A DNA stretch of 64,000 bases from an uncultured Bacteroidales bacterium. GTDB lineage: Bacteria > Bacteroidota > Bacteroidia > Bacteroidales > Bacteroidaceae. This document shows, in pieces, positions 7,428 to 63,275 of the stretch. The notes beneath the pieces are model-generated. The model searched no databases. It was not told where the DNA came from and saw only the letters and a program-made list of their open reading frames with translations. Every line of letters begins with the position of its first letter. Within the stretch, counting starts at the first letter, position 1. The stretch is taken from positions 62,001-126,000 of the forward strand of contig CADAGX010000015.1 of the NCBI GenBank assembly GCA_902787575.1, read 5' to 3'. The position numbers were made by a program, and so were the translations under genes.

Positions 7428-7530
7428 GCGACGTGTGACAATTGGGATAGCCACGTGTGGCAATCGAAATAGCGACGTGTGGCAAAATAAAAACTGCGTG
7501 TAGTTTCAAGCGAAAATACACGCAGTTTTT
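7428..7530. repeat. 22-bp phased CACGT array 1
   Basis: Five cores (CGTGTGA, CGTGTGG, CGTGTGG, CGTGTAG, CACGCAG) begin at 7432, 7454, 7476, 7497 and 7519, so the spacing is 22, 22, 21 and 22 bp. The array fills the gap between two convergent genes. The last two units face each other and form the terminator hairpin. Confidence 0.85.
7490..7530. terminator. Bidirectional intrinsic terminator
   Basis: Stem AAAACTGCGTGTA (7490-7502) pairs with 7517-7529. It is flanked by T on the plus side and by A-runs (T on the minus strand) on the other. It separates the convergent MBL hydrolase and phosphodiester glycosidase genes. Confidence 0.85.
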
Positions 7531-7557
7531 CTGCTGTCGCAGCAAGTTACGGCGCTG

Positions 7558-8397
7558 CTACTTGAAATAAATAATATTCGGAATGCTGCGCACTCCCTCG
7601 TGGTCGAACTTTTTGTTGTCCGTTGGGTGATTCAAAATATCTCCACCCAGATAGAGCGTGGTCGAACCGCCGCCATCGAGATTGAGGGCAGTCTTGGCTC
7701 CCAAAACACGAGCCAGATGTGCCATTTCTGGAATGGAAGCGCCAATGGATTTGCCCGCCGCACGCCCGTCGACGGCTATCAGAAGCACACGTTTGTCGCG
7801 TGTCAGGGCGATGGCACTGCGCGGATGTTTGGTGGTGCAGAACGACTCGCCGCACATACTCCAGTCGGCAACCCTACCATTCTGCACCAGCAGCGGACCG
7901 GACGCCAGCACGGTTCCGCGTTTCTTCTTGTAACCTTTTTCGATTTTACGGTTCCAAGGCAGTATTTGCACCTTTCCTTTCCTCACACGCACCGCGCCGG
8001 TAACTCGCAAACGACCTTCGCTGGCCGTGGTTGTGTCGAGCACCATGTCGTCCACCTTGAGGAAGCAAACCGAGTTGCCGGCCTTCATGTCATAATAAGA
8101 GCCGTTGATAGCTGCCAGTGCAGCGTGTTCGCGTGCCAAAACCGGCAGTGGTTTCATCTGACGCGACACAGCGATGCCGCCACGCCGCAGTTTGGCATTC
8201 ACCTCCACGATGCTCACATACATTGGGCCGCCGTACAAATCTGTGAATGCGGCAGTACGTCCTGTCAGCCCCGGAGCGAACTCTGTTACATTCCACTTGG
8301 CGTTTACAATAGACAGCGAGTCATACGCCGTCTGCGCCACGACGTTTTGCAGAAACAGCGTGGCGCAGACAATAGAAAGAAATCTGAGAAATCTCAT
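7558..8397 (-). CDS. Phosphodiester glycosidase family (NAGPA domain) protein
   Basis: A secreted protein of 279 residues with a signal peptide (cleavage near VVAQ). It matches the NAGPA/DUF2233 fold: AAINGSYYDM, HPRSAIALTRDKRVLL, IAVDGRAAG and the terminal ALNLDGGGSTTLYL signature. Mammalian NAGPA removes GlcNAc from phosphodiesters, and bacterial homologues act on exopolysaccharide or wall-linked phosphodiesters. The substrate here is unknown. It ends in a terminator shared with the convergent gene. Confidence 0.9.
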   Translation of the reverse strand: MRFLRFLSIVCATLFLQNVVAQTAYDSLSIVNAKWNVTEFAPGLTGRTAAFTDLYGGPMYVSIVEVNAKLRRGGIAVSRQMKPLPVLAREHAALAAINGSYYDMKAGNSVCFLKVDDMVLDTTTASEGRLRVTGAVRVRKGKVQILPWNRKIEKGYKKKRGTVLASGPLLVQNGRVADWSMCGESFCTTKHPRSAIALTRDKRVLLIAVDGRAAGKSIGASIPEMAHLARVLGAKTALNLDGGGSTTLYLGGDILNHPTDNKKFDHEGVRSIPNIIYFK

Positions 8398-8411
8398 ACT
8401 CTATACAGTTT

Positions 8412-10052
8412 TCAGAATTTGAAGCCCAGCGTGCAAGTTATGGTGTGGCGGTTCAGGTTCAGATCTACGGGAGAAAGTTTCCTGCCTGCCAGTGCCGGAT
8501 AATCTGTGGCGAACTGTGCGTCGGAAGTGAAGCTGTCGTCGAAAGCGTAGAACTCGCCGTTTTGCTGACGGAACTTGTATGTCAGGTCGCAATAGAAGTG
8601 CTTATATTTGTATCCCAAGCCACACGCCAGAATATTTGCGTCCGAGAGCGTCATGTAGCTCGTGTTGGGAATATAATCCAACACTGCGCTATTTATATTC
8701 TGATTGAATGTTTTTCCACTTTTGTAGATGCTGCTGATGTAATTGTAGCCGAGGCGAGCCGACCAATCACTCGAGAGTTTGAACTCCACGCCAGCCTTCA
8801 CCGTGTGTTGTCCCTTGAAGTTTCTATTCGTGAGACGTGTCATTTCCTTGTCGCTCTGCCCCGAGAAAGAATTTCCGCCGTAGTAATCTGCATCGTCGGG
8901 ATAGCTCAGACGATTTTTTCCATAGTTCGCATATTCATATTCCACGCCCCACGCCAGATAACGGTCCACGGTGCTTCCGAGGCTGACACGCGCGCGCCAA
9001 GGAGTGCGAAGCACGTATTCCAGGTAGCAGTCGTCTCGTCCGGGAACATTGTAGTAGCCGCCATTAAAATAATTGCCTGACGCATCGTAATAATCGAGGT
9101 GCACTCCGTTATTATCGTACTTCGAATCTATGCTGTGGTCGGTGCGGGATTTCAGGCGATACCACGTGGGAGTCTCTACGGCCAAGCCCACACGGAAAGG
9201 ATTATCTTCGATGGGACGAACGATGGCGCCCAGTTTGAAATTTATGCCGAAGCCGGAAATTCGCTGGTCGTTGTAGAGTGTGTAATCCTGAATGTAGTCT
9301 CGCGGATCCGTCGTGCTGATTATACCATCGCGATACTCGGTATACATAGAATGACGGTCGTAATCTACATTTTCAAAGCCGAGCGTACCACCCACATACC
9401 AGCGGTCATCGACGTTGAAGCTCATATTCAGGTCAAACGCCTGTGCCGAGCCGGTGCTGTAGTGCGTATATTTGTTTTCCGATGCGCGGTCTGAATTATA
9501 GTAGCCGTTAGCATCCGAATTAATAAGGTATGCTTCCCACGAATTTTTAATGAGGCCGTAAGCGTCGTCCATGTCAGCCTGAGTGGGATAGAACTTATTG
9601 GCCTGCATTGCCAGCTGATCCATCTGCGACAGCCCACGCAGATTTGCATTATCTGCGTAGAAAGCGCGGTTGAAGTTGGCTTTCTTCTGGTAATTGAACG
9701 CGAAGTTGAAAAATTTCACCCTGTCGCCCTGAACATTCCAAGAGGCGACAAATCCAATTTGGTCGAATGTCCCGTGCACCAGCGCGTCCCCTTCGTCGTA
9801 CTTCTTGTCCTTGGGCCAGAGGACGCCGGCTGTGAGAGCTACGTCCGACTTACGATACAATCCGATTGCCGCAGGGTTGGAACTGATGGCCGAAATGTCG
9901 GCACCGAGGGCGCCAAGCGCGCCACCCATGGAAACGTAGCGCGAGGTTCCAATCAGGTCGGCCGTGCTGGAGATTTCGGCATTGTTGTATGCATGCTGGG
10001 CGCTGGCGGCAGTGGCCACACAAAGGGCACCCAAAAGAAATATCCTTTTCAT
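8412..10052 (-). CDS. OmpP1/FadL-like outer-membrane transport protein
   Basis: A 546-residue beta-barrel with a signal peptide (cleavage about ATAASAQ). The N-terminus has the conserved motif GGALGALGADISAISSNPAAIGLYR, found in proteins of this order often labelled hemin receptor or FadL-like. The rest alternates aromatic and polar residues and ends with CTLGFKF, a C-terminal phenylalanine typical of BAM substrates. Transport of hydrophobic molecules across the outer membrane is expected from the family, but the ligand is unknown. Confidence 0.88.
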   Translation of the reverse strand: MKRIFLLGALCVATAASAQHAYNNAEISSTADLIGTSRYVSMGGALGALGADISAISSNPAAIGLYRKSDVALTAGVLWPKDKKYDEGDALVHGTFDQIGFVASWNVQGDRVKFFNFAFNYQKKANFNRAFYADNANLRGLSQMDQLAMQANKFYPTQADMDDAYGLIKNSWEAYLINSDANGYYNSDRASENKYTHYSTGSAQAFDLNMSFNVDDRWYVGGTLGFENVDYDRHSMYTEYRDGIISTTDPRDYIQDYTLYNDQRISGFGINFKLGAIVRPIEDNPFRVGLAVETPTWYRLKSRTDHSIDSKYDNNGVHLDYYDASGNYFNGGYYNVPGRDDCYLEYVLRTPWRARVSLGSTVDRYLAWGVEYEYANYGKNRLSYPDDADYYGGNSFSGQSDKEMTRLTNRNFKGQHTVKAGVEFKLSSDWSARLGYNYISSIYKSGKTFNQNINSAVLDYIPNTSYMTLSDANILACGLGYKYKHFYCDLTYKFRQQNGEFYAFDDSFTSDAQFATDYPALAGRKLSPVDLNLNRHTITCTLGFKF

Positions 10053-10083
10053 CTTATCTGTTTTTACGTTTAAATATTCAAAT

Positions 10084-10158
10084 TGTCACACGTGGTTTCG
10101 GTGGAAACTACACGTCGTTTTTCGAAAACTACACGTGGTATTTCTGTTGCATCACGTC
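10084..10158. repeat. 22-bp phased CACGT array 2
   Basis: Four cores (CACGTGG, CACGTCG, CACGTGG, CACGTC) begin at 10089, 10111, 10132 and 10153 (22, 21, 21 bp), all in the same orientation. The array ends at the stop codon of the upstream minus-strand gene and precedes the OmpP1-like gene. Confidence 0.8.
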
Positions 10159-11307
10159 TTATCTGCCGCCACGGCCTCCGCCGCCGCGCGAACCACCGCC
10201 AGAGAAGCCGCCGCCACCGCCGGAAAATCCGCCGCCACGGGTGCTGCCGCCCGAGAAACCGCCACCGGAGTAGCTGCCACGTGAGCTGGAACTGCTACTG
10301 CTGCGGCTAACGGAGCTACTGCTGCTGCGCGAGGGCGTACTATAGGAGCCGCGCGTAGAACTGCTGCTCTCCGAGCGCGAAGGTGCGCTGTAACCACGAG
10401 TGGAGCGCGAGGTACTCTGCGTGGGAGCCGTAGTTGTTACGGAACGAGAGGAAGAAGGATTCACCATACGTCCGCCGCGTGTGCTGCCAATCGTGCCACG
10501 ACCAGTGCCATACGTCGTACCAGAGCTGCCAACCGTGCCGCGCGTAGAACCGGAGCGAGAGAGGAAATTTCCGCCCATGCGTCCGCCGCGAGCATTGCCG
10601 CGACCTACATGGCCGCCACCTGCCGTAACGCCACGATTGCTGCGGTTGAAGAAACTTCTGCCAGTCCGATCGCGGTGATACCCGCCGTACCATCCGTGGT
10701 GCCACCCGAGATCCCATCCGGGATGATGGTGCCAACCCCAGCCCCAATCGTACCAACTGTAATATCCGAAGCGATAATACGGACCATACCACCCGTACCA
10801 GGGATCATACCACGGGTCGTACCAACCGTAATAAAAGTCCCAAAGGAACGGATCGCGCAGATAAAATCCATGATATCGGTGCAGGCGCGAAGTATAGTAG
10901 AAGTCATCGTCGTAGTAACCACCTTCGTCAGGTTCGGATGCGACGGGTGCTTCGTCGGGTTCCAACACGTAGGATTTCTCGTTCAGCGAGTCGGTCATCA
11001 CGAAAAGTGTGTCTCCCACCAGCCGTGCGACGGGCTGCGATGTGCCGCGGCGATTGTAATCGTCCACGTCGCGCAGTGCGCCGCTGTGATAATCGGGGTC
11101 AGTTTCCGTGCCATCCCACGCAGATTCGTCAACGGTGGAAGCCGCCGTCTGAGTTCGCGAAGTGGAACTTGTAGCGGAAGAGAGTGTCGTAGTCCGACTG
11201 GCGGCCTTACTTTTTCTGGGGACGAAGTACATATCGTCGTCCACCTGTGCACTAATCGCAAAAGGAAGTGCGAAAAATGCTATCCAAAGGAAGAATTTCT
11301 GTCTCAT
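10159..11307 (-). CDS. Secreted aromatic-rich and Ser/Gly/Arg-rich low-complexity protein
   Basis: I recognise no enzyme family in this 382-residue protein. A signal peptide (cleavage near AISAQ) is followed by a Ser/Thr stretch and an acidic region. A block at about 140-210 is extremely rich in Tyr, Trp, His, Gly and Asp (for example WYDPWYDPWYGWYGPYY). The C-terminal 160 residues are almost entirely Ser, Arg, Gly and Thr, ending in GGGFSGGG-type repeats. An envelope or surface structural role is plausible but unproven. The gene has its own well-formed promoter. Confidence 0.85.
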   Translation of the reverse strand: MRQKFFLWIAFFALPFAISAQVDDDMYFVPRKSKAASRTTTLSSATSSTSRTQTAASTVDESAWDGTETDPDYHSGALRDVDDYNRRGTSQPVARLVGDTLFVMTDSLNEKSYVLEPDEAPVASEPDEGGYYDDDFYYTSRLHRYHGFYLRDPFLWDFYYGWYDPWYDPWYGWYGPYYRFGYYSWYDWGWGWHHHPGWDLGWHHGWYGGYHRDRTGRSFFNRSNRGVTAGGGHVGRGNARGGRMGGNFLSRSGSTRGTVGSSGTTYGTGRGTIGSTRGGRMVNPSSSRSVTTTAPTQSTSRSTRGYSAPSRSESSSSTRGSYSTPSRSSSSSVSRSSSSSSSRGSYSGGGFSGGSTRGGGFSGGGGGFSGGGSRGGGGRGGR

Positions 11308-13993: not shown

Positions 13994-14015
13994 AAAAACG
14001 GGCAGAAAGTAACTG

Positions 14016-14115
14016 AAAAACGACGTGCAGCATTTTCTGTACCACACGTCGTTTTCAGAAAATCACGTGTGGTGTACGAAGAAACTGCACGTGATAAATT
14101 CTGCACCACAGGTCG
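14016..14115. repeat. 22-bp phased CACGT array 3
   Basis: Cores at 14024 (CGTGCAG), 14045 (CACGTCG), 14064 (CACGTGT), 14088 (CACGTGA) and a degenerate one at 14109. Spacing is 21, 19, 24 and 21 bp. It lies immediately past the stop codon of the M18 peptidase. Confidence 0.75.
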
Positions 14116-14121
14116 GGATGA

Positions 14122-15405
14122 TCAACTCCCGTAGAAATGTGCGAATGCCCGCACGCAATACTCGTAGTCGCGCACGGCGCCAGTCTCTCGCGCGCTGTGC
14201 ATTGCAAGGATGGGAGCTCCCATATCCACGCCACGTAACGGCAGCGACGCGCTGAGTATGTTGCCCAGCGTGCTGCCGCCTGCCACATCGCTGTGGTTCA
14301 CGAATCGCTGGCACGGAACGCCGCTCTCGCGACAGATTTCTGCGAACACGGCTGCCGAAACGGCGTCGCTGACATATTTCTGCGAAGCGTTAAACTTTAT
14401 GACGGGACCGCCGCCCAGCTGCGGATGATTCGTCGGGTCGTATTTCTCGCCGTAGTTGGGATGGAAAGCATGTGCGTTGTCGGCAGAAACCATGAATGAG
14501 CGCTCCACACACTGCCAGAACGCAGCTTCATCGCCACCCTGTGCCAAAATAATTCTGCGCAGGAGGGAAGAAAAAAACGGACTGCCGGCGCCTTGTTTTG
14601 TCTGGCTGCCAGTCTCCTCGTTGTCGAATACCGCCACCACCTGCGTGCGGCTGTTTTCGCGGCACGTCAGTATGGCTTCCAACGATGCGAAAGCCATCGT
14701 CAGGTCGTCTTGCCGCCCAGAGGAAAGAAACTCGCCGTGAGCGCCGAAGGTGCAGGCTGATGTGGCGTCGTAAAGATACAGGTCGAAATCCAAAATCTGC
14801 TCGGGGCTGACGGACAACTCCGTGCAGATAATTTGCTGCAGCAGGTTGCCACGTTCCAATTCGTCGTTCAGTATTCCGAGCAACGGCAGTGTGTCTTTCT
14901 GTTTGCTAAGCTTCACACCGTCGTTTACCTGCCGATTAAAATGAATTGCCAAACTGGAGATTTGCAGCAACGGACGCTTGACATGAAGCAAACGACACAC
15001 GGGATGCATGGCATCTGCGCCTCGCAACACCACGCGCCCAGCCACACTGAGCGGTCTGTCGAACCACGTGGAGAGAATCGGGCCGCCGTAAACCTCGGTA
15101 TTCAATTTCACAATTCCGCCGTCGGCCGTCATTTCAGCATTCGGCTTAATACGGAAAGTGGGCGAATCGCAGTGCGAACAAATCACGTGAAAGCCCGCAT
15201 CGGCTAAACTGGCCGTGCCAAGGCGGAAGGCATAAAGCGAGGAGTCGTTCTTCTTCACGTAGAATTTTCCGTCGCTCGGCAGCTTCAGCGGTTCAGCGGC
15301 GTCTAAACACACAAAGCCAGCGGCCTGCAACTCAGTCTCCAAACGTCGCACAGCCAGAAAGTTCACGGGCGACGAATTCAATCGGTCAATCAATCGTTCT
15401 ATCAT
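14122..15405 (-). CDS. apeB: M18 family aminopeptidase
   Basis: A zinc aminopeptidase of the aspartyl/leucyl M18 family with 427 residues. Metal-site motifs are ICSHCDSPTFRIKP near residue 85, VFDNEETGSQTKQG in the middle, and a late NHSDVAGGSTLG. It cleaves N-terminal residues from peptides in the cytoplasm. I start at the ATG at 15405 (MIERLIDRLNSS), since the 45 upstream codons in frame run through the divergent promoter region. It shares that region with murQ. Confidence 0.92.
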   Translation of the reverse strand: MIERLIDRLNSSPVNFLAVRRLETELQAAGFVCLDAAEPLKLPSDGKFYVKKNDSSLYAFRLGTASLADAGFHVICSHCDSPTFRIKPNAEMTADGGIVKLNTEVYGGPILSTWFDRPLSVAGRVVLRGADAMHPVCRLLHVKRPLLQISSLAIHFNRQVNDGVKLSKQKDTLPLLGILNDELERGNLLQQIICTELSVSPEQILDFDLYLYDATSACTFGAHGEFLSSGRQDDLTMAFASLEAILTCRENSRTQVVAVFDNEETGSQTKQGAGSPFFSSLLRRIILAQGGDEAAFWQCVERSFMVSADNAHAFHPNYGEKYDPTNHPQLGGGPVIKFNASQKYVSDAVSAAVFAEICRESGVPCQRFVNHSDVAGGSTLGNILSASLPLRGVDMGAPILAMHSARETGAVRDYEYCVRAFAHFYGS

Positions 15406-15419
15406 TTCCTTCAAAAAAA

Positions 15420-15450
15420 TTTTTCGTGTGGGCAAAAATTCGTAACTTTG
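15420..15450 (+). promoter_or_regulatory. Promoter of murQ
   Basis: TTTT (15420-15423, 3 of 4 matches to TTTG), 19-nt spacer, TAACTTTG (15443-15450). The murQ ATG is 42 nt downstream. Confidence 0.65.
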
Positions 15451-15492
15451 CTCGTCGTTGAGTGCAAAATTACAAATTATTCTCTGAAAACC

Positions 15493-16293
15493 ATGCGTCA
15501 AACCGAGAAAATTACAGAGCAGCCGTCCCATTTCGACCATTTGGAAAAAATGTCGGTCGAGGAACTATTACACCACATAAACGAGGAAGACAAACTTGTG
15601 GCAGCCGCCGTGGAGAAAAGCATCACGCAGATTCAGCGCCTCGTCGAGGCCATAGAACCGAAAATGCGTGCCGGCGGACGTCTTTTTTACCTTGGCGCCG
15701 GCACCAGCGGGCGTCTGGGCGTACTCGATGCCAGCGAGTTGCCACCGACATTTGGTGTGCCGGAAACGAGAGTGACAGGTGTTATTGCCGGCGGCGACCG
15801 TGCTTTGCGCCACGCCGTGGAGAACGCCGAAGATATTGCCGAACAGGGATGGAAAGACTTGCTGCCATTTTCGCCGACGCCAAACGACTCCGTCATAGGA
15901 ATTGCTGCGTCCGGCACCACGCCATACGTCGTTGGTGCAATTCGCCAAGCCCGCAGCTTTGGTCTCACCACGGGCTGCATCACAAGCAACCCGCAGACAC
16001 CACTGGCGGCGGCCGCGGAATTTCCGGTTGAGACGATAGTGGGGCCGGAATTCGTCACGGGATCTAGTCGGATGAAAAGTGGCACAGCTCAGAAAATGGT
16101 GCTTAATATGATTTCTACGACGCTTATGATCCGACTCGGCCGCGTGCAGGGAAATCGGATGGTGAACATGCAACTGACAAATGCAAAGCTCATCGACCGC
16201 GGCACGAAGATGATACAGGAATCGCTCGGCCTGTCGTACGACGAGGCGCGCAAGCGGCTGCTCGAGGCGGGAAGCGTCAGCGGCGTGCTCTGA
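15493..16293 (+). CDS. murQ: N-acetylmuramic acid 6-phosphate etherase
   Basis: Cleaves the lactyl ether of MurNAc-6-phosphate to GlcNAc-6-phosphate and D-lactate during peptidoglycan recycling. The 266-residue SIS-domain protein contains the signatures FYLGAGTSGRLGVLDASELPP (in part), GIAASGTTPYV and VTGSSRMKSGTAQKMVLN. I use the ATG at 15493 (MRQTEKITEQPS); upstream codons lie in the promoter. Two deoxynucleoside kinase genes follow but have their own promoter. Confidence 0.95.
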   Translation: MRQTEKITEQPSHFDHLEKMSVEELLHHINEEDKLVAAAVEKSITQIQRLVEAIEPKMRAGGRLFYLGAGTSGRLGVLDASELPPTFGVPETRVTGVIAGGDRALRHAVENAEDIAEQGWKDLLPFSPTPNDSVIGIAASGTTPYVVGAIRQARSFGLTTGCITSNPQTPLAAAAEFPVETIVGPEFVTGSSRMKSGTAQKMVLNMISTTLMIRLGRVQGNRMVNMQLTNAKLIDRGTKMIQESLGLSYDEARKRLLEAGSVSGVL

Positions 16294-17654: not shown

Positions 17655-17665
17655 CGCATCATTCC

Positions 17666-17790
17666 TGCGTGACGTGGCAGAAATAATGGTACGCGTGGGA
17701 AGTAAAAAACTGCGTGTGGAAAAAAGAATGCGACGTGTAGTATCAACCGAAACTACACGTCGCATTTTGTATTACTGCGCGTCGCATTCT
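17666..17790. repeat. 22-bp phased CACGT array 4
   Basis: Cores at 17692 (CGCGTGG), 17713 (CGTGTGG), 17734 (CGTGTAG), 17756 (CACGTCG) and 17778 (CGCGTCG): 21, 21, 22 and 22 bp. A looser copy lies near 17668. The array fills the convergent gap and abuts the AraC-family stop codon. Confidence 0.85.
17727..17766. terminator. Hairpin with a perfect 15-bp stem
   Basis: 17727-17741 (AATGCGACGTGTAGT) pairs perfectly with 17752-17766 across a 10-nt loop. A-rich sequence precedes it and T-rich sequence follows, so it can terminate both convergent genes. It is built from two opposed array units. Confidence 0.8.
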
Positions 17791-25800: not shown

Positions 25801-25992
25801 ACCACGGCCACTACGGCAGTGGGCGTCATACCGATGATTATCGCAGGCAGTTCATTCTGGATGCCCGTTGGCATTACCATTTTTGCAGGCGGCATCGGCA
25901 CGTTGGTGCTCGTCGTAACCGTGCTGCCGATAGCCTATTGGAAACTAAACAAACCACAGAAACAAGAATCTCAAAGCCAAGAACAAGCATGA
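22897..25992 (+). CDS. RND efflux transporter permease
   Basis: A 1031-residue inner-membrane pump of the AcrB/HAE-RND superfamily. It has one helix near the N-terminus, two large periplasmic loops and two six-helix bundles. Helix 4 carries LACLIVVLGMVVDNSIVVID with the proton-relay aspartates. The second half carries GFITLMGMIMRNEILIFEH. It starts MSSYKPKGWAAWPINNYRI and ends in a Gln/Glu-rich tail. It shares an ATGA overlap with the outer-membrane channel gene. Confidence 0.95.
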   Translation: MSSYKPKGWAAWPINNYRITALITTLLLCFGLYGIYVMPKDEFPPFVVRQGVVVAIMPGATSEEIEAQVARPLERYLFTYKEVNREKTTTTSQNGMCLVMVQLHDNINKKDEFWSKLKHGLNAFKGSLPSGVLAVVVNDDFGDACALLITVESELRSYRELQQYSDELADRLRRIPSVSNVRQYGEVKEQLTIYVDRERLASYGVGQAAIQKALSSEGLTTMSGNLTAETQNIALHMSPTQHTEEEILNQIIYSDGENRVVRVRDVAEIRREYDTSTQYIENNGNRCVLLSLEMNSGHNIVKYGEDVDRVLADFKDEYLPADVSIRRITDLPKVVGDSVHDFLRDLILSMVIIVLVMMILFPTRSAIVAAITIPLSTFVSTGIMYAVGIPLNTITLACLIVVLGMVVDNSIVVIDGYLEYLGQGMRRRDAAVRSVQQYFWPMMLATLCICAIFYPLVLTMTGEASDVIGLFPVTITINLMVSLAVAVAVIPLLNAAIIKDAPKKDKDGKPSLTDRVQKIYNRTLNWNFRHPWLTVVGAIILVAATSMIFPHLKMRQFPYADRNQFAVEIYLPEGEGLEHTRVIADSVRHILQADSRTLSVTSFMGCSSPRFQVSYAPQQGGRHFAQLIVNTPDIETTLDMLNEYAPQLSNHWPQAYVRFKQMDFLMVPTYEYRFYGNDIDSLQAAADALMKEMRLMPELEWVHTDYEQPHPIVEITLDPVASAQLGINRSTAQLQMTLQTGDFQAGSIWEGNYELPVVVKDKMSTRLTFSSVQDVFLTTTTGQSVPLRQVATAQPKWSLTKIVHRNGERCISVLAEGKRQVLATPVQKRIGRIISQMQKENKLPAGVRAEIGGEVEKNGEMVPQIAAGIGLALVVIFFFILFNFKRFGITTLCMAAIALSIPGAMIGLLIANKTLGLTSLFGFITLMGMIMRNEILIFEHADEKMSQGMSARDAAYDAGRRRMVPIFLTTATTAVGVIPMIIAGSSFWMPVGITIFAGGIGTLVLVVTVLPIAYWKLNKPQKQESQSQEQA

Positions 25993-27260
25993 AGACATGG
26001 TATATTCTGCTCGGCGCACTGACGTTTCCGGCACTGCTGCACGCCGAAAAATATTCTCTGCAGCAATGTGTCGAAAAAGCACTGGCATCGAATGCCAATT
26101 TACGCAATGCTCGTCTGGAAATCGACGCGGCAGCCGAAGACAAGAATGAGACGTTCTCGAAATTCTTCCCGGAAGTATCGGCCACGGGAGGCGCGTTTGT
26201 GGGAGCGAAAGACTTGATGCGCGGAGAAATGGAGGTGCCGATGATGGGCAGCATGCCACTTTCTATGATAAAGAAAGGCGTCGTGGCAAATATCACGGCC
26301 ATGCAGCCGATTTATGCCGGCGGACAGGTGCTGAACGGCAACAAGCTGGCAGCGCTGCAACACGAGGTGCGCCAGCTGCAATACGCCATGACGGAGAAAG
26401 ATGTGCGTCAGAACGTGCAGGATTACTACTGGCGGCTGGTTTCCCTGCGCGGAAACGTGAGCACACTGGACGCCGTAGACAGCCAACTGAACGAGGTACA
26501 CCGACAAACGACACAATTTGTAGAGGCCGGCGTCATCAACCGCAACGACTTACTGCGTGTGGAAATGAAGCAGCAAGAGATGAAAAGCCAGCGTCTGACG
26601 CTCGAGAACGGAATTGAATTGGTGCGGATGCTGCTGGCTCAGCTGTGCGGAGCCGACATGCAGGCTTTCGATATCGTGGAAGAAAGCATACTAAATCCGC
26701 CAGCACCCGCCACTTATTTTGTTGCTGCCAGCGAGGCAGTGGCAAACCGCGAGGAGACATCGCTGACGCAGCAGTCAGTTCGCGCCAATTCACTGCAGAT
26801 AAAAATGCAGCGAGGCAAGAATCTACCCACCGTGGCTGTCGGCGCCGCCGGAATGTACTATAATGTGATGGAAAAGAACCAGGGAAATCTGGTGGGACTG
26901 GCCACGGTTTCGGTGCCTATCAGCGATTGGTGGAGCAATCGCGGCACGAAGAAAGCCAAAATCGCCCTGCAGCAAAGTCAAATAACACAGGCCGACACTC
27001 AGGAAAAGCTGCACATCGACGTACTCAATGCGTGGAACAATCTGCAAGAAGCGTATGCGCAGATAGAAATCGCGCGTAGCAGCGTGGCGCAGGCAGACGA
27101 GAATCTCCGTCTGAGCCGCAACCAGTACAACGCCGGCACGCTGTCGATGACCGATTTACTCGACGCAATGACGCTTTACACACAGAGCCACAACCGTCTG
27201 ACAGAAGCCTGCGCCAATTACCAGGGCCGAGTGGCAGAATACGAACGTAAGACAAAATAA
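25989..27260 (+). CDS. TolC-like outer-membrane efflux channel
   Basis: Third component of the tripartite pump. The 423-residue protein has a signal peptide (ending near LLHA) and the two duplicated OEP repeats, with long coiled-coil helices (about 130-200 and 330-400). YNAGTLSMTDLLDAMTLYTQ is the conserved end of the second repeat. Start at the ATG overlapping the pump stop, which gives the signal peptide. A strong terminator follows. Confidence 0.93.
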   Translation: MKTWYILLGALTFPALLHAEKYSLQQCVEKALASNANLRNARLEIDAAAEDKNETFSKFFPEVSATGGAFVGAKDLMRGEMEVPMMGSMPLSMIKKGVVANITAMQPIYAGGQVLNGNKLAALQHEVRQLQYAMTEKDVRQNVQDYYWRLVSLRGNVSTLDAVDSQLNEVHRQTTQFVEAGVINRNDLLRVEMKQQEMKSQRLTLENGIELVRMLLAQLCGADMQAFDIVEESILNPPAPATYFVAASEAVANREETSLTQQSVRANSLQIKMQRGKNLPTVAVGAAGMYYNVMEKNQGNLVGLATVSVPISDWWSNRGTKKAKIALQQSQITQADTQEKLHIDVLNAWNNLQEAYAQIEIARSSVAQADENLRLSRNQYNAGTLSMTDLLDAMTLYTQSHNRLTEACANYQGRVAEYERKTK

Positions 27261-27282
27261 TTCTCGCCTGCGGGAAATTATT

Positions 27283-27360
27283 TCCCACACGAGGAAAAAG
27301 AAAAACTGCGTGCAACAAAAAAGTTATTGCACGCAGTTTTTTTGCTGTCGCCGCACGTGG
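27283..27360. repeat. 22-bp phased CACGT array 5
   Basis: Cores at 27288 (CACGAGG), 27309 (CGTGCAA), 27330 (CACGCAG) and 27354 (CACGTGG), spaced 21, 21 and 24 bp, directly after the efflux operon. The two middle units form the terminator. Confidence 0.7.
27301..27343 (+). terminator. Intrinsic terminator of the efflux operon
   Basis: AAAAACTGCGTGCAA (27301-27315) pairs with 27327-27341, followed by a run of seven T. The A-run on the left also makes it functional for minus-strand transcripts such as tRNA-His. Confidence 0.9.
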
Positions 27361-27424
27361 CCATGAAATAATGAGTCCCCAACACCAGTTTGACCTGTGT
27401 CGGGGACTCGGAGGGAGGGAGTTG

Positions 27425-27499
27425 GGTGACTAGTGGGACTCGAACCCACGACATTCAGAACCACAATCTGACGCTCTAACCAACTGAACTATAGTCACC
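27425..27499 (-). tRNA. tRNA-His (GTG)
   Basis: Cloverleaf on the minus strand with acceptor GTGACTA/TAGTCAC, anticodon loop TTGTGGT (anticodon GTG) and T loop TTCGAGT. An extra 5' G (27499) faces C73 (27425), the usual tRNA-His identity pair. CCA is not encoded. Confidence 0.95.
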
Positions 27500-30482: not shown

Positions 30483-30602
30483 GAGCAACAAATATTCTGA
30501 CGTGCGGCATCCACATTTACTACGCGTACAACGCGCGCGACCACACGTAACGGACTGCAAAAATACACTTTCCCGCGCACATCTGCAAGTCTGAGACTGA
30601 GA

Positions 30603-30685
30603 AAACAACGTGCGACGGCGAAAAAACTACACGTGATAATTCAAAAAGCACACGTCATATTTTCCGTAGCACAAGGAGGAAATTC
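30603..30685. repeat. 22-bp phased CACGT array 6
   Basis: Cores at 30609 (CGTGCGA), 30630 (CACGTGA), 30651 (CACGTCA) and a decayed one at 30672, all 21 bp apart. The array lies between the end of the tRNA-fMet transcript and the yqiA-like gene. The terminator at 30704-30734 has the same ACACGTAGC sequence in its stem. Confidence 0.75.
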
Positions 30686-30703: not shown

Positions 30704-30734
30704 AATAAAAAAACACGTAGCAAAAGCTACGTGT
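30704..30734 (-). terminator. Terminator of the initiator tRNA
   Basis: Minus strand: ACACGTAGC, loop TTTT, GCTACGTGT, then a T-run (30705-30712). A perfect 9-bp stem directly follows the tRNA. Confidence 0.92.
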
Positions 30735-33169: not shown

Positions 33170-33192
33170 CGCGCAACCTGCAAGATTTCAAA

Positions 33193-33305
33193 AACGCCGT
33201 TTCATCGAAAAAAATGCCACACGCAGTTTCGATGAATGCGACGTGTCGCAATTAGAAAAACTACGTGTCGCAATTAAGAAAACTACACGTCGCATTTTAG
33301 CGCGC
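33193..33305. repeat. 22-bp phased CACGT array 7
   Basis: Four units start exactly 22 bp apart (33218, 33240, 33262, 33284), with a weaker one before. Cores are CACACGCAG, GACGTGTCG, TACGTGTCG and TACACGTCG. 33235-33246 and 33285-33296 form a 12-bp inverted repeat. The array lies between two convergent genes. Confidence 0.88.
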
Positions 33306-41908: not shown

Positions 41909-44372
41909 AATACCACGCATAGTTTTCATCGTTGCCACGTGCAGTTTTATTTTTTCTGCGTGCGACATTACGAGCAACCTCCCGCAGGACGAGACGCTCT
42001 ATGCCGGCATACACGAACTGGCATACGATGCAGCGCCCAAAAGCAAGCGTCAGAAGGCGGAAGACGACGAGGGCGTAATTACGGCACTGGCCGATGCATA
42101 CAGCACTGTGGAAGGTCTGCTGACAGGCGACGCCTCGGTGATTTCCGCAGACGGCACTGACGCAAAAGAAATGCGTGCCCTCCAGAAAATTCAAAACGAG
42201 AAGGACCAAAAACAATACGACGCCACGCGCGAGGAGATAGAAGCCGTGCTTTCATTTGCGCCGAACGGCTCCGTCATGGGTAGCAGCTACACGCGCTGGC
42301 CGTACCCGCTGCGGCTGTGGATATACAACCGCTATCTGAACGCACGCCACCGCTGGGGACGCTGGATGTTCAACACGTTTGCTTCCACGCCACGTTACGT
42401 CAGCACGGCCAACCCGTCCGTCCGCACACAAGTGGCACGCAATACGCTGAAAAACTTCGGCTACTTCCGTGGTACGGCAGCCTTCGACACTGTGCCGCTG
42501 CCCTTGCGACGCCAGGCAAAGATAGCCTACGAGGTTCACCCCGGCCCGCTGTTTCATCTCGACAGCATTCAGTATCTGGGATTCCAAGGCGCAGCCGACA
42601 GCATGTTGCACGCCACGATGTGGGCATCGCACATTGTACGCGGAAACCCGTTCGATGTAGCCAAACTGGATGCAGAACGCCAGCGCATCAGCACACTGCT
42701 CCGCAACAACGGCTACTACTATTTCCAGCCCGGCTACGTGGCGTTTCGAGCCGACACGCTGCAGCGCCCGCTGAAAGTGCAGCTGCAAGTCTGCCCGCGG
42801 CCCGACGTGCCGACAAAGGCACAGCAGGTATATCATTTGCGAAACACCATCGTAACGCTGCAACGCTACAACGAGCGGCAAAACCTCACCGACAGTCTGG
42901 GACGACGACGCTTCAAAATGTATTTCCGAGGCGACCCGAAGCCGCCACTCCGACCCGGTGCCATCCTACACCAGATGAACTACCGGCCAGGCGACCTGTA
43001 TCGGCAGGAAAGCCACGAGCTGATGCAGAAGAAACTGGCTGGCATGGGCATCTTTTCGCAGGTACGCGTAAACTATACGCCAGCCGATTCGACCGAAAAC
43101 TGCGACTCGCTCGACGTACGCATAACCGCCATGCTGGACAAACCATACGACGCAGAGTTCGAAGGCAAAGTCACCACCAAGAGCAACGGGCAGGTGGGAC
43201 CAGGCGCCACATTCGCTGTTTCGAAGGCTAACGCGTTCCGCGGCGCAGAAACTGCAGGCATCAGGCTGTGGGGCTCGTATGAATGGCAGACGGGCGCCAA
43301 CCTACGAGGAAAAAGTTCGCTGCTGAATTCCTACGAATACGGCGTAAACGCATACCTCACCTACCCTCGCATCCTGTTCTTCAACAGCCGGAAACTGAGT
43401 CGCCGAGCCGTGTCATCCACAAAATTCCAGCTCGATTCGCGCTGGCTCAACCGTGCCGGCTACTTCGGCCGCGTGTCATTGGGCGCGCGCGTAACCTATT
43501 CTTATAAGCGACAACCTGCCACCAAGCACGAGTTCACACCGTTCCGTCTGGACTACGACGTGAAGCTCCACTCCACAGCACGCTTCGATTCCATCGTGGC
43601 GGCCAACGAGGCGCTCTACGTCAGCATGCGAAACCAGTTCGTCCCAAGCATGGAATATCTCTATACGTGGGTCAGCCAGCGACATGCGCCACGTACTTTC
43701 ACTCTGAACCTCAAGGAGGCAGGAAACTTCGCAAGCGCCATCTATGCACTTGGCGGCCAATCTTTCGAGAGGCGCGACAAGCAACTTTTCGGCGTACCAT
43801 TCGCGCAATTCCTGAAAACGACGGCCCAATACACACATAAGTTCCGCCTGACTCGGCGTTCCTGCATCGCCACAAGAGTGGTTGGCGGCCTCATTTTCTG
43901 TTACGGCAACAGCACGGCGGCGCCGTACAGCGACCTGTTTTCGGTCGGAGGAGCCAACAGCATCCGAGCTTTCGCAGTTCGCAGCATCGGTCCCGGCTCG
44001 TACCAACCGTCAAACAGCAACTACAGTTACATCGACGAGACAGGTGACATAAAATTTGAAGCGAATGCCGAATATCGTTTCCCGCTTGTGGCCAATCTTT
44101 ACGGCGCGGTGTTTCTCGATGCCGGCAACGTGTGGCTGATGAAACCAAACGCCGACCTGCCCGGCGGCGCCTTCAGCCTGAAAAATCTGGGCCGCGAAAT
44201 AGCACTGGGCACGGGTGCCGGACTAAGATACGACCTCGACTTCCTGGTCATCCGATTCGACATAGGCGTCGGCATACACGCGCCATACGACACGGGACGC
44301 TCCGGCTATTACAATATGACACGCTTCGGCAAGAGTCTGGGCTACCACCTCGCTGTCGGCTACCCGTTCTAA
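41895..44372 (+). CDS. tamA: TamA/BamA-type Omp85 outer-membrane protein (lipoprotein)
   Basis: An 825-residue Omp85 protein. It begins with a lipoprotein signal (FIFSACDITSN, Cys 23), has POTRA-like modules in the first half (HPGPLFHLDSIQYLG, NPFDVAKLDAERQRI), and a C-terminal 16-strand barrel. The barrel carries the VGGANSIRAFAVRSIGPG segment (the Omp85 VRGF/Y-type signature) and ends GYHLAVGYPF. The lipid anchor is common for Bacteroidota TamA-like (TamL) proteins. It forms an operon with tamB, overlapping by 14 nt. Confidence 0.92.
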   Translation: MAENKIPRIVFIVATCSFIFSACDITSNLPQDETLYAGIHELAYDAAPKSKRQKAEDDEGVITALADAYSTVEGLLTGDASVISADGTDAKEMRALQKIQNEKDQKQYDATREEIEAVLSFAPNGSVMGSSYTRWPYPLRLWIYNRYLNARHRWGRWMFNTFASTPRYVSTANPSVRTQVARNTLKNFGYFRGTAAFDTVPLPLRRQAKIAYEVHPGPLFHLDSIQYLGFQGAADSMLHATMWASHIVRGNPFDVAKLDAERQRISTLLRNNGYYYFQPGYVAFRADTLQRPLKVQLQVCPRPDVPTKAQQVYHLRNTIVTLQRYNERQNLTDSLGRRRFKMYFRGDPKPPLRPGAILHQMNYRPGDLYRQESHELMQKKLAGMGIFSQVRVNYTPADSTENCDSLDVRITAMLDKPYDAEFEGKVTTKSNGQVGPGATFAVSKANAFRGAETAGIRLWGSYEWQTGANLRGKSSLLNSYEYGVNAYLTYPRILFFNSRKLSRRAVSSTKFQLDSRWLNRAGYFGRVSLGARVTYSYKRQPATKHEFTPFRLDYDVKLHSTARFDSIVAANEALYVSMRNQFVPSMEYLYTWVSQRHAPRTFTLNLKEAGNFASAIYALGGQSFERRDKQLFGVPFAQFLKTTAQYTHKFRLTRRSCIATRVVGGLIFCYGNSTAAPYSDLFSVGGANSIRAFAVRSIGPGSYQPSNSNYSYIDETGDIKFEANAEYRFPLVANLYGAVFLDAGNVWLMKPNADLPGGAFSLKNLGREIALGTGAGLRYDLDFLVIRFDIGVGIHAPYDTGRSGYYNMTRFGKSLGYHLAVGYPF

Positions 44373-47124: not shown

Positions 47125-47128
47125 GGGT

Positions 47129-47224
47129 GGGAAAGCTTACTGCATCGCGCCGCTACAACCGACTACCCTTGCTGCGATCAAACCCTGGGGGATTTGCCAG
47201 GAGCATGCCGTGCAGGACTTTCCC
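47129..47224 (-). ncRNA. ffs: Signal recognition particle RNA (4.5S type)
   Basis: A 96-nt minus-strand RNA. The ends pair as GGGAAAG/CTTTCCC and then CTGCA/TGCAG. The SRP core is recognisable as CCCCCAGG on one side and AGCAAGGGTAG on the other, giving the CAGG/AGCA symmetric loop bound by Ffh. The apical segment between them reads GTTTGATCGC instead of a stem closed by a GGAA or GNRA tetraloop. A consensus promoter precedes it. Confidence 0.85.
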
Positions 47225-47234
47225 ATTTCGCGTG

Positions 47235-50024: not shown

Positions 50025-51022
50025 TGAAAAGGTGGCAAATTATTTTCCTGCTGCTGCTCGTGGCAGGTACGACATTCATTCTGCGCAGAAACGTTGAGAG
50101 CAAAATCCCTTTCCAACGCGTGGAAGGAATGATTTTCGGCACCGTCTATCACGCTACGTACCAGTGCCGCGAAAATCTCGACGCGCAGATTCTCTCCGAA
50201 CTGCAGGCCGTAGATGCCTCTCTCTCGATGTTCAATCCGGGTAGCTGCGTGAGCCGTCTCAACAAAGGTGAGGCGACAGTAGCGGATACACTGCTACAAA
50301 CCGTTTTTGCCATAGCGCAAGAAGTGAGCCGACAGACCGACGGAGCCTTCGACGTGACGGTTGCCCCGCTGGTTAATGCGTGGGGATTTGGCTTCAAGCA
50401 CGAGTCGATGCCCACGGCGGAACACGTGGACAGCCTGCTTGCCACGGTCGGTTACCAGAAAGTCTGCCTTTCGGGCGACACACTGCGAAAGCCCACCGAA
50501 ACGATACTCGACTTCAGCGCCGTGGCAAAAGGCTTTGCCTCCGATCAGGTTGGCCGCATGTTTAAGCGAAACGGCGTGCAGAACTACATGATAGAGATTG
50601 GCGGCGAGGTGGTTTGCAGCGGCCGGAATCCGAACGGCGGCCCATGGCGCATCGGCATCAACCAGCCCACAGAGGACAATACGGACAGCGGCGAGTTGCA
50701 AACGGTGCTCAGTCTGAACGAAAGTGCACTTGCCACGAGCGGAAACTACCGCAACTTTTACGAAAAAGACGGGCGCAAATATGCGCACACCATAGACCCA
50801 AAGAGCGGTTACCCCGTGCAGCATTCGCTGCTCAGCAGCACGGTTTTGGCGCCGTCGTGTGCCGTTGCCGACGCATATGCCACCGCTTTCATGGTTATGG
50901 GCGTTGAGCGGGCGCAGCAGCTGCTGTCGAAGCATCCCGAACTGAAGGCGTTTTTCATCTTCACTGATGCCAACGGGAAACTGACCACATGGTCATCACC
51001 CGAACTTGAACTGGAGGAATAA
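50024..51022 (+). CDS. apbE: FAD:protein FMN transferase (ApbE)
   Basis: Flavinyltransferase of 332 residues that attaches FMN to threonines of Rnf/Nqr-type subunits in the periplasm, or recycles flavin there. It has an N-terminal membrane anchor (IIFLLLLVAGTTFIL), MFNPGSCVSRLN, DFSAVAKGFASDQVG, MIEIGGEVVCSG and HTIDPKSGYPV with the metal and FAD site residues. The start at 50024 overlaps the DUF6048 stop by one base. No flavinylation target is visible nearby. Confidence 0.94.
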   Translation: MKRWQIIFLLLLVAGTTFILRRNVESKIPFQRVEGMIFGTVYHATYQCRENLDAQILSELQAVDASLSMFNPGSCVSRLNKGEATVADTLLQTVFAIAQEVSRQTDGAFDVTVAPLVNAWGFGFKHESMPTAEHVDSLLATVGYQKVCLSGDTLRKPTETILDFSAVAKGFASDQVGRMFKRNGVQNYMIEIGGEVVCSGRNPNGGPWRIGINQPTEDNTDSGELQTVLSLNESALATSGNYRNFYEKDGRKYAHTIDPKSGYPVQHSLLSSTVLAPSCAVADAYATAFMVMGVERAQQLLSKHPELKAFFIFTDANGKLTTWSSPELELEE

Positions 51023-51024
51023 AA

Positions 51025-51081
51025 TTACGACGTGTGGCAAGGGAAAAAACGACACGCAGTTTCTGAAATATCACAGCAGCC
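51025..51081. repeat. 22-bp phased CACGT array 9 (short)
   Basis: Cores CGTGTGG (51031), CACGCAG (51053) and a weaker CAGCAG (51074), spaced 22 and 21 bp, starting nine bases after the apbE stop codon. Confidence 0.65.
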
Positions 51082-57345: not shown

Positions 57346-57357
57346 CAGCCGAGACGC

Positions 57358-57449
57358 CACCGTGTGGCAAGAAAAAAACTACGTGTAGTTTTGCTCGAAA
57401 CTACACGTCGTTTTTCGTCATGCGACGCGTCGCAATTTTCAATGCGACG
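57358..57449. repeat. 22-bp phased CACGT array 10
   Basis: Cores CGTGTGG (57361), CGTGTAG (57382), CACGTCG (57404), CGCGTCG (57426) and the start of a fifth at 57448. Spacing is 21, 22, 22 and 22 bp. The array ends exactly at the stop codon of the convergent FAD oxidoreductase. Confidence 0.88.
57375..57415. terminator. Bidirectional terminator hairpin
   Basis: A 17-bp stem with one mismatch (57375-57391 with 57398-57414) and a 6-nt loop, flanked by A-rich and T-rich runs. It is formed by two opposed array units. Confidence 0.85.
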
Positions 57450-59045
57450 TTACTTAATCTCAGCAAAGCGCTGCATCACCTCCTCGTGACTGACGTGCTG
57501 CACCACCCCATTGCACTTACGAATAGCCAAACTGGCTGCGATGGCCGCGCTTTCGCCCAGCACCATGAAGACCGGCTCCATGCGGATGCTGCCATACGCA
57601 ATGTGCGAGGCCGAAAGACACACGGGAACCAGCAGGTTGCAGGCTTCCGCCTCAAACGGAGTGATGCTCCGATACGACACGCCGTAGGCTCCCGGCAGCC
57701 GAATCTGCACGTCGCCCTCGTTTTTCACCATTCCATTCACCACATAGCGACCCGTGTTGTGCGAGTCCATATTGTATGCCGCCCAGCCCACAGCGTCCGA
57801 AACAGGCGCTTTCTCGCGCAGGCAGTCGCCTTGCGTCATAACGTATGGCCCAACCATGCGGCGCGACTCGCGGATGTAGAGCTGTGGCGTAAAGTGTCCG
57901 TGCTCTTCGTATTCGTCGCGCGGCAGGCCCCACTCGCCAATCTCGCGCCTCACAAATTCAGGCACACGCGCATCGTGACCGACAAAGTAGAGCAGCCCCA
58001 GCGTGTAGTCGAGGTGGGCGCGATGCAGGCGCTCGCGCTTCTTGTAGCTCGCCTCGGGGTAATCCCAGTTCTCGCCTATCATGTCGGTGCTAAACGCACC
58101 GTTGTTGTTCACATCCGTCTTGTTGTTTGGCATACGGTCCCACTTGAAACAATCGTTCAGTCCGCGCCACGGCTGCACTTCTTTCAGGCGGAGCAGCAAC
58201 TCGTAGCGTGTGGAATCGTAGCGGGCAGGGCGAGTAATCGGCAAGCGATTGGCCGGATCGTTTGTCAACGTGAGGCGAAAATTATACGCCTGCACGCGTT
58301 TGTCGGCCTGCCCCGTCTGTCCCATCTCGCCCGGCAGTATGCCATAGAGAAGGCCGCTGGCCGGATTTCCCTTTTCGACGTACGGATCCACGCCGTCGGG
58401 GAATTGATGTTTGTCGCGCATCTGCAGGCCATTGTAACTCTCGCCGTACGTAGCACTGCTCTCGCGGCCCACCACATACGAAACGCCGGCACGCGCCATC
58501 AGGTCTCCCTCGTAACTACAATCGATGAAGACCTTGGCACGGACCGTTGCGCGACGCTGTTTCACTCGTTTCGACGCACGTTCGAGTGTGATTTCGCGTA
58601 GTCGGTTTTCTTTTTTCACCACTTTGCAAATGCGGCGCGACATGGTCACATCCACACCTGACGCCTGCAACATCTGACGATACACGCTGAGAGCCACCTT
58701 GGGTTCGAACTTGAAAACTGGAGCATCCGCACCATAGCATTTTCCGACTCGGCTGTAGAAATCCAGCGCCAGGCCTTTGATAATTTCCACGCGACCTATG
58801 TCAGTGAAGCCCAGCCCGCCGGCCGTAAGTCCGCCGATGCGTTCGCCCGGTTCCACAAGCAGGACAGAGCAACCTTCGTGACGCGCCGTAATGGCAGCAA
58901 TGATGCCTGCCGACGTGGCACCATACACGCACACATCCACATCGCTCACACGCGGCAAGTCATCCCAACGCTCTTGGGAAAACAACAAACAAGGCACGCA
59001 AAACACCATACCGCATGCCACAAAAAGATTTCTGAAAGCTTTCAT
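57450..59045 (-). CDS. Secreted FAD-dependent oxidoreductase (FAD_oxidored family)
   Basis: A 531-residue exported protein with a signal peptide (VFCVPCLLFSQ). The dinucleotide-binding motif CVYGATSAGIIAAITA is followed by VEPGERIGGLTAGGLG, and the catalytic middle has CSYEGDLMARAGVSY. Bacteroidales PUL-associated proteins of this type are often labelled FAD-dependent oxidoreductase or xanthan-lyase-like. The substrate is unknown. ATG 59045 gives the proper signal peptide. Confidence 0.9.
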   Translation of the reverse strand: MKAFRNLFVACGMVFCVPCLLFSQERWDDLPRVSDVDVCVYGATSAGIIAAITARHEGCSVLLVEPGERIGGLTAGGLGFTDIGRVEIIKGLALDFYSRVGKCYGADAPVFKFEPKVALSVYRQMLQASGVDVTMSRRICKVVKKENRLREITLERASKRVKQRRATVRAKVFIDCSYEGDLMARAGVSYVVGRESSATYGESYNGLQMRDKHQFPDGVDPYVEKGNPASGLLYGILPGEMGQTGQADKRVQAYNFRLTLTNDPANRLPITRPARYDSTRYELLLRLKEVQPWRGLNDCFKWDRMPNNKTDVNNNGAFSTDMIGENWDYPEASYKKRERLHRAHLDYTLGLLYFVGHDARVPEFVRREIGEWGLPRDEYEEHGHFTPQLYIRESRRMVGPYVMTQGDCLREKAPVSDAVGWAAYNMDSHNTGRYVVNGMVKNEGDVQIRLPGAYGVSYRSITPFEAEACNLLVPVCLSASHIAYGSIRMEPVFMVLGESAAIAASLAIRKCNGVVQHVSHEEVMQRFAEIK

Positions 59046-59103: not shown

Positions 59104-59172
59104 GAAAAAGAATATCGACAGCAGAAAAAAGAAAAAGGAGAGCGAAGCATTGCTCCACTCTCCTTTCGCATT

Positions 59173-59257
59173 TGGTGCCCAGAACAGGACTCGAACCTGC
59201 ACGCCTCGCGGCACACGCACCTGAAACGTGCGCGTCTACCAATTCCGCCACCTGGGC
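59173..59257 (-). tRNA. tRNA-Leu (CAG), copy 1
   Basis: Type II tRNA with a long variable arm, anticodon CAG, acceptor GCCCAGG/TCTGGGC. CCA is encoded (59173-59175). The body is identical to the copy at 59454-59535. It is the last gene of the cluster. Confidence 0.93.
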
Positions 59258-59414: not shown

Positions 59415-59453
59415 GTAACTTTTCCTTCGTGACACTGCATAAATATTTTTTCG

Positions 59454-59535
59454 TGCCCAGAACAGGACTCGAACCTGCACGCCTCGCGGCACACGCACCT
59501 GAAACGTGCGCGTCTACCAATTCCGCCACCTGGGC
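59454..59535 (-). tRNA. tRNA-Leu (CAG), copy 2
   Basis: Sequence identical to copy 1 over 82 nt, anticodon CAG. Here CCA is not encoded. It lies 13 nt downstream of tRNA-Gly. Confidence 0.93.
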
Positions 59536-63076: not shown

Positions 63077-63081
63077 AAATG

Positions 63082-63113
63082 CAAAGGTACGATTTTTTTT
63101 CGTCATAGGCAAA
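63082..63113 (-). promoter_or_regulatory. Promoter of the barrel-PCMD-nspC operon
   Basis: TTTG (63110-63113), 20-nt spacer, TACCTTTG (63082-63089). The predicted start site nearly coincides with the ATG at 63076. Confidence 0.85.
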
Positions 63114-63164
63114 AACGAAGAAGAAAACACATGCTTCTCCACCCTATTGAACATCGCTGCAGAA

Positions 63165-63275
63165 ACACTACACGTAGTTTTTAAAAATCTACACGTCGCA
63201 TGAAGCAATGCGACACGTCGCGTGAAGCAATGCCACACGTCGCGTGAAGCGATGCGTCACGTCGCATCTCGGACA
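63165..63275. repeat. 22-bp phased CACGT array 11
   Basis: The cleanest array: CACGT cores at 63171, 63192, 63214, 63236 and 63258 (21, 22, 22, 22 bp), all in one orientation. The intervening sequence is nearly identical (CGCGTGAAGCAATGC type). It lies downstream of the partial surface-protein gene. Confidence 0.92.

Follow-up and report, generated by a model that had tools for sequence, protein, structure and literature searches.

The window analysed here is a 64,000-nucleotide stretch (G000:C15:62001-126000) of the draft genome of an uncultured Bacteroidales bacterium of the Bacteroidaceae (G000; 2.65 Mb, 34 contigs, 86.9% complete), and its intergenic gaps carry rows of short units, here called arrays, in which the unit core recurs every 21 or 22 bp. 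Each unit is made up of a roughly 16-bp quasi-palindrome, A N R C N A C / R Y / G T N G Y N T, together with a spacer of 6 bp. With the strict core defined as CNAC-AC/GT/GC-GTNG, the window contains 29 cores, and all 14 pairs lying within 60 bp of each other are phased, at 22 bp (8 pairs), 44 bp (3), 21 bp (2), and 43 bp (1). In 200 first-order Markov sequences, the mean number of strict cores was 4.8, and no pair was spaced at 21, 22, 43, or 44 bp.

Four of the arrays are situated between convergent genes. The array at 7423..7531 has five units (spacing 22, 22, 21, and 22 bp) between genes for a metallo-beta-lactamase fold protein and a phosphodiester glycosidase, and its final two units fold into a terminator-like hairpin that has a T tract. 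The array at 17662..17790, between the deoxynucleoside kinase and HTH_18 regulator genes, has five to six units (21, 21, 21, 22, and 22 bp), the first being weak, that is, passing the loose unit score only; within it, a long inverted pair folds into a hairpin. Between the pseudouridine synthase and oxidoreductase genes, 33189..33298 contains four to five units spaced at 22, 22, 22, and 22 bp (first weak), and between the S41 peptidase and FAD oxidoreductase genes, 57352..57460 contains four to five units spaced at 21, 22, 22, and 22 bp (last weak). The four units at 10080..10165 (22, 21, and 21 bp) lie between co-directional minus-strand genes, and the four to five units at 14015..14121 (21, 21, 22, and 21 bp; last weak) are located directly past the stop codon of the M18 peptidase gene, which is on the minus strand (14122-15540). 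Three weak units at 27279..27342 (21 and 21 bp) lie in the gap that separates the stop of the plus-strand gene 25989-27260 from the 3' end of the tRNA-His gene on the minus strand (27424-27498); two of the three pair up as a hairpin, with a T tract after it. Further arrays are found at 30600..30663 (three units; 21 and 21 bp) and 63162..63270 (five units; 21, 22, 22, and 22 bp), and two units spaced at 22 bp are located at a stop codon at 51022..51065. The first-pass annotation had listed eleven sites with three to five cores each; nine of these hold at least three phased units (the one at 27283 with weak units only), the site at 51025 is reduced to two units, and that at 46150, with one weak unit, is not confirmed as an array.

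Two additional elements lie close to these sites or resemble them. Beside tRNA-Met, at 30707-30739, a pair of units with a spacing of 16 bp might fold into a short hairpin; the pair does not share the phase of the 30600 array. At 41907-41950, outside the earlier list, two more units (22 bp) flanked by A/T-rich sequence lie at the stop of gene 37331-41908 and overlap the called start of the next gene. Ten window genes adjoining arrays were looked up; nine belong to ordinary Pfam families and one has no Pfam family. Rfam 15 at gathering score gave eight matches in the window, namely seven tRNAs and the Bacteroidales small signal recognition particle (SRP) RNA, none of them on an array. The SRP RNA is located at 47125-47231 and adjoins tRNA-Thr.

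The same phasing extends through the source genome. In a 464-kb sample, comprising the window and 20 further stretches (L019-L038), 172 strict cores form 117 pairs within 60 bp, of which 115 are spaced at 21, 22, 42, 43, or 44 bp and the other two at 37 and 59 bp. All 70 consecutive cores lying 15-30 bp apart are spaced at 22 bp (63) or 21 bp (7). The phased arrays first proposed for the window are thus confirmed; random spacing outside the window, set beforehand as the result that would speak against them, did not occur in the 400 kb examined there. Furthermore, the array family is wider than the first reading of the window showed. An unbiased intergenic self-match search detected repeats in 13 of 170 regions of this genome, all at 22 bp, and the pattern CNACACGTNGNNTTT occurs 99 times in the whole genome against 2 times for the reversed pattern, which served as the control for the genome-wide counts of CNACACGTNGNNTTT. 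The 464 kb hold 35 intergenic arrays of at least three units: eight with 3 units, seven with 4, fifteen with 5, three with 6, and two with 7. Inside called genes (422 kb coding), the loose score also gave 15 chains of at least three units, some of which are perhaps real arrays under wrong gene calls; about one or two of the 35 intergenic arrays may therefore be chance.

Within the unit, the length is fixed and the core conserved. The centre dinucleotide of 101 phased cores is AC in 43, GT in 34, GC in 23, AA in one, and AT in none. The first-pass annotation had described a varying core orientation at constant phase; the phase is indeed constant, but the orientation is merely the centre dinucleotide of the quasi-palindrome CNAC-RY-GTNG, and since three of the four R-Y centres (AC, GT, and GC) occur and the fourth (AT) does not, it reflects one centre transition. 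The spacers, which had been described as A/T-rich, are only mildly so (about 50-62% compared with 45% in the 464 kb), with a stronger A/T preference at positions ±7 to ±9 from the centre. Spacer identity between arrays is 0.289, against 0.258 by chance, and adjacent spacers have an identity of 0.523; in the source genome, spacer length is conserved, spacer sequence is near random, and there is some local duplication.

Arrays occupy all three kinds of intergenic gap. In the source genome, they are present in 9 of 36 gaps between convergent genes, in 14 of 233 between co-directional genes, and in 12 of 36 between divergent ones; none of the 140 co-directional gaps shorter than 60 bp holds one. 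An array lies at most 20 bp from a stop, or overlaps it, in eight of the nine convergent and eight of the 14 co-directional array-bearing gaps. In the divergent gaps, 10 of the 12 arrays are at least 53 bp from both called starts, and one of the 12 (at 30502) is weak, probably inside coding sequence, and looks spurious. Missed genes were considered for the divergent gaps and rejected, as no open reading frame of the scored set (at least 40 codons) passed the cut-off of the gene caller (best 10.3 against 12). In Phocaeicola oris, the corresponding numbers are 10 of 45 convergent, 15 of 224 co-directional, and 5 of 45 divergent gaps.

The named loci most similar to the window come mostly from metagenome-assembled genomes (MAGs) of ruminant-gut Bacteroidaceae and Prevotellaceae. 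In relatives, the pitch recurs on other sequences. Applied to relatives, the self-match search detected repeats in 72 of 528 regions, 31 of them at 22 bp, and none in shuffles. A census of tandem arrays in 78 loci of about 3-22 kb (531 intergenic regions; period 15-35 kept, 17 simple repeats dropped) gave 58 arrays, of which 40 have a period of 22 bp, seven of 23 bp, five of 21 bp, and six other periods, while shuffles gave one. The 52 arrays at 21-23 bp form 33 sequence clusters, and 29 of the 78 loci have at least one array of 21 or 22 bp. Several array families occur together in one genome in L052, L054, L091, and L112. Arrays with a 23-bp pitch were observed at L103 4846 and L067 20915 and in L042, L072, and L084, including Prevotella sp. 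MGM1. Heptamer and 11-mer simple repeats, kept out of the count of 58, are present in intergenic regions of the rumen relatives L056, L055, L106, and L073. In ten other Bacteroidota genomes (34-40 kb each), one weak 22-bp match was found in 190 intergenic regions, and in the sample examined the trait looks confined to the Bacteroidaceae.

Genome-wide, the units of the array-rich genomes counted form large families, here called dialects. Among 151 genomes of the family, CNACACGTNGNNTTT is enriched only in G000 and G060; G060 has 123 matches against 3, mostly CAACACGTTG among the matches listed, and there all 31 core pairs within 100 bp are spaced at 22, 44, or 66 bp and all 18 consecutive cores at 21-22 bp. 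In the case of P. oris, the unit has 646 matches (at most three mismatches) against 3 for the control, while 19 other genomes have 11-22 each (controls 1-14); 208 of 209 core pairs within 130 bp are in phase, and 85 of 86 consecutive cores are spaced at 21-22 bp. In 400 kb of P. oris, 30 arrays were counted, with a range of three to nine units and 20 arrays at five (9) or six (11) units. The Bacteroides MAG G153 has 331 unit matches per strand against 3, and the G154 unit has 67 per strand against 1-2. In P. massiliensis, one unit has 152 matches against 15, the pattern being near-palindromic so that sites can count on both strands, and the ACGTACGT unit has 29 per strand against 0; array scans of this species gave 1 of 21 regions in 60 kb and, in 120 kb, two matches that were runs of N or empty. 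The ACGTACGT unit has 68 matches per strand against 2 in P. faecalis and is not enriched in P. vulgatus (1 against 3). It is common to G153, P. faecalis, P. massiliensis, and, weakly, the genome of L088 (10 against 3), so dialects are not always private to one species. These genome-wide counts cover the dialects named here and not all 33 clusters.

Comparison of orthologous gaps indicates how the arrays change. In 682 orthologous-gap pairs, with the pair L043-L044 left out, an array is present in both members in 23, in one in 84, and in neither in 575. The 23 pairs compare with a label-permutation mean of 8.0 (p 0.0018), the period is 22 in all but one of their members, and for 20 of these pairs unit identity does not exceed the null (at most 12 of 21; null 95% point 12). 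Some orthologous gaps keep an array though its unit was replaced. L043 and L044 are 94.9% identical, and the differences between their orthologous arrays consist of blocks within units and of one whole unit. Relatives also differ in whether a given gap holds an array, and among the gaps inspected none showed a clean empty site. At the 57358 array, the gene after the S41 peptidase varies among relatives, so that gap is not comparable. In L052, L057, and L058 (gaps from about 15848, 17491, and 19555), a 21-bp A/T-rich array of the GGAAATATATTTC unit is nearly identical in three species and adjoins a 22-bp array with a diverged unit.

Dispersed intergenic repeats are usually recognised by their sequence. 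Here, the conserved trait is the pitch: throughout a major bacterial family of gut and rumen, array families of unrelated sequence keep a spacing of 21-23 bp. The wide difference in unit sequence between species, together with the constant spacing, suggests a putative protein lining up along the DNA. Accordingly phased binding sites for a putative cooperative protein with changing specificity are the reading preferred here, with its chances put at about even. An array would be a row of about three to seven (mode five) quasi-palindromic sites for one putative sequence-specific DNA-binding protein, which may bind each unit as a dimer; neighbouring dimers would touch, their sites lying two helical turns apart and hence on the same DNA face. 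A quasi-palindromic core at fixed helical spacing, the arrangement of a cooperative operator array, was found. The distinct half-sites at array ends are as expected if end sites have no neighbour: in P. oris, G stands at half-site position -5 in 0.62 of the 58 outer half-sites against 0.21 of the 282 inner ones (Fisher p 2e-9), and A stands at position -10 in 0.62 of outer against 0.16 of inner ones. The narrow range of array size, with five units in 15 of 35 source-genome arrays and five or six in 20 of 30 in P. oris, also speaks for this reading. Between species, the specificity of the protein would shift, and units would be replaced in register genome-wide through whole-unit exchange, gain, and loss, so that the dialect changes while the pitch and sometimes the position stay. 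Because the arrays sit in gaps between genes, they are proposed to act most likely as boundaries or nucleoid anchors, or possibly as elongation road-blocks.

A cooperatively bound protein with the cores on one DNA face had already been suggested in the first-pass annotation, and it is still the best-fitting reading in view of the fixed 21/22-bp spacing, the near-random spacers of the source genome, and the pitch common to unrelated families; no protein was found to go with it. Several observations weigh against it. No candidate for the cognate protein was found. The unit halves are slightly less alike than shuffled ones, which is not what a simple symmetric dimer would lead one to expect. Spacers are partly conserved between arrays in P. 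oris (0.505) and G060 (0.459), so the argument from length rather than sequence rests on the source genome. Likeness is greater between adjacent units than between units from separate arrays (12.7 against 10.7 of 22; in P. oris 15.8 against 13.4), so local duplication contributes. The trait is patchy, with 49 of 78 loci lacking a 21/22-bp array and B. ilei having none in 17 regions. The 23 pairs with positional retention derive from about seven gaps, are not independent, are uncorrected for gap length or relatedness, and involve arrays for which the calling threshold was lowered and no shuffles served as control. In addition, the gene calls come from a home-made, simple codon-score caller.

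The main rival to the phased binding sites, considered rather unlikely, is that the dialects are selfish dispersed repeats, small elements multiplied without host benefit by a putative enzyme family with a fixed 22-bp footprint. High copy number, lineage-specific sequence, several families per genome (as in the four loci above), distinct array ends, and presence or absence at the same gap between relatives are all consistent with it; the lack of a clean empty site in the inspected gaps and the retention of some positions while the sequence changes are not. The Y1/RAYT-type transposase family PF01797 (RAYT, repetitive extragenic palindrome-associated tyrosine transposase) bears on both sides. 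Matches were found in 13 of 27 genomes; among the 13 are P. massiliensis (G169) and G154, both array-rich, and G000, whose match is partial (37 bits). The remaining 14 have none; they include the array-rich G060, P. oris (G151), G153, and G164, although drafts may miss genes. Two of 12 loci around PF01797 genes (L139 and L140) hold a 21/22-bp array, and the genome's own unit was within 1.5 kb of the gene in none of the three genomes checked (G000, G154, and P. massiliensis). At L140 656 (G095, a congener), a 21-bp palindromic array lies within 1.5 kb of a Y1-type transposase gene. Viral contigs gave no match to two exact tandem-unit patterns, which also argues against the selfish explanation, and a phage origin was rejected on the same result. 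Neutral tandem duplication, by which a 22-bp unit is duplicated and spread by recombination and the pitch is inherited and not selected, is an improbable account. It agrees with the greater likeness of neighbouring than of distant units and with the near-perfect repeats of some relatives' arrays, but it leaves unexplained that source-genome cores are conserved beside near-random spacers, that no other spacing was seen, and that unrelated families have the same pitch.

Least probable of all, and mostly refuted as a general explanation, are intrinsic terminators built of inverted units and multiplied arm by arm, with the pitch being that of the hairpin. Hairpins with A/T tracts are present in the window at 27300-27350, 7488-7534, and 17720-17776, and the outer array ends are A-rich. 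An inverted pair of at least 17 of 22 was detected in 5 of 16 source-genome arrays within 45 bp of a stop, compared with 0 of 19 others (Fisher p 0.013). Of the covariation tests one was marginal: mutual information of half-site flavours across the spacer gave p 0.04, yet the proportion of equal flavours is hardly different there (0.29) from that within units (0.28). The other tests show no covariation of the paired arms: in the source genome, the inverted identity of mirror units is 10.16 of 22 against 10.76 between arrays, and identities measured across the spacer, within the unit, and from end to end do not exceed permutation in either the source genome or P. oris (p 0.80-1.00 for the across-spacer and within-unit tests), leaving mirror units, neighbouring halves, and array ends without excess complementarity. 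Nor is the position confined to gene 3' ends, since 12 of 36 divergent gaps (one apparently spurious) and, in P. oris, 5 of 45 hold arrays; also in P. oris, 18 of 25 arrays in convergent or co-directional gaps keep a distance of over 30 bp to the nearest stop. One gap has, beside the array, a conserved hairpin resembling an intrinsic terminator. In P. oris, inverted pairs of at least 17 of 22 occur in 3 of 30 arrays, one per context class. The amplification of terminator arms unit by unit, the alternative given in the first-pass annotation, is mostly unsupported: neither units nor array ends are complementary beyond the shared consensus, and arrays lie also in divergent gaps. It possibly holds for a minority. 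Hairpin formation was rejected as a general account with this exception: some source-genome units serve in terminator-like hairpins, not as a rule.

Several known systems resemble the arrays in part. Repetitive extragenic palindromic (REP) sequences and REPINs (REP doublets forming hairpins) with their RAYTs are similar in having many short intergenic palindromic units of lineage-specific sequence. The arrays differ in keeping a fixed 21-22-bp pitch over rows and in lacking hairpin covariation, with no two inverted units forming one conserved hairpin (mirror and end pairs are not above cross-array identity). A RAYT-driven REPIN was not accepted as a general account, the transposase not having been found in four array-rich genomes though others have it. 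The bacterial interspersed mosaic elements (BIMEs) of enterobacteria are mosaic rows of palindromic units between genes; in the arrays, the pitch is two helical turns whatever the orientation, the unit is about 16 bp with a 6-bp spacer, and divergent gaps are occupied too. ArgR boxes and met boxes are quasi-palindromic sites at fixed helical phase with cooperative binding. The arrays resemble them in site symmetry, phase, and the cooperative binding to be expected, but are present at many places per genome, in all kinds of gap, and in a dialect that differs between species. The DNA uptake sequence is a single short core dispersed without fixed phasing, unlike the array cores phased at 21/22 bp. 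GTAG- and CGTC-tagged palindromic repeats are small dispersed palindromes, the CGTC class being reported from Bacteroidetes among other phyla, and form singletons, dimers, and clusters of variable composition (PMC3733652). The portion of that paper available describes no fixed pitch for the tagged repeats such as the 22 bp of the arrays (PMC3733652). Among the matches listed from the open-access literature, no description of such arrays was present.

A more far-reaching and tentative possibility, somewhat doubtful at present, is that the Bacteroidaceae hold a so far unnamed chromosome-addressing system, in which rows of phased sites would be occupied by a cooperative protein family re-targeted between species, with arrays rewritten in place at the 22-bp pitch and sometimes several dialects per genome. 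Such a system, if real, would give bacteria an equivalent of the fast-evolving chromatin binders with their repeats. A protein binding the arrays, if there is one, would count as an abundant and so far unnamed factor that organises the DNA of the Bacteroidaceae, with rapidly changing specificity, and the named strains (P. oris, P. massiliensis, and P. faecalis) make the protein reading directly testable.

The window also contains two pairs of near-identical copies. The tRNA-Leu (CAG) genes at 59171-59257 and 59449-59535 are 99% alike and lie within a four-tRNA cluster. Two 48-nt copies at 1987-2034 and 2074-2121 are 96% identical and lie 87 bp apart.

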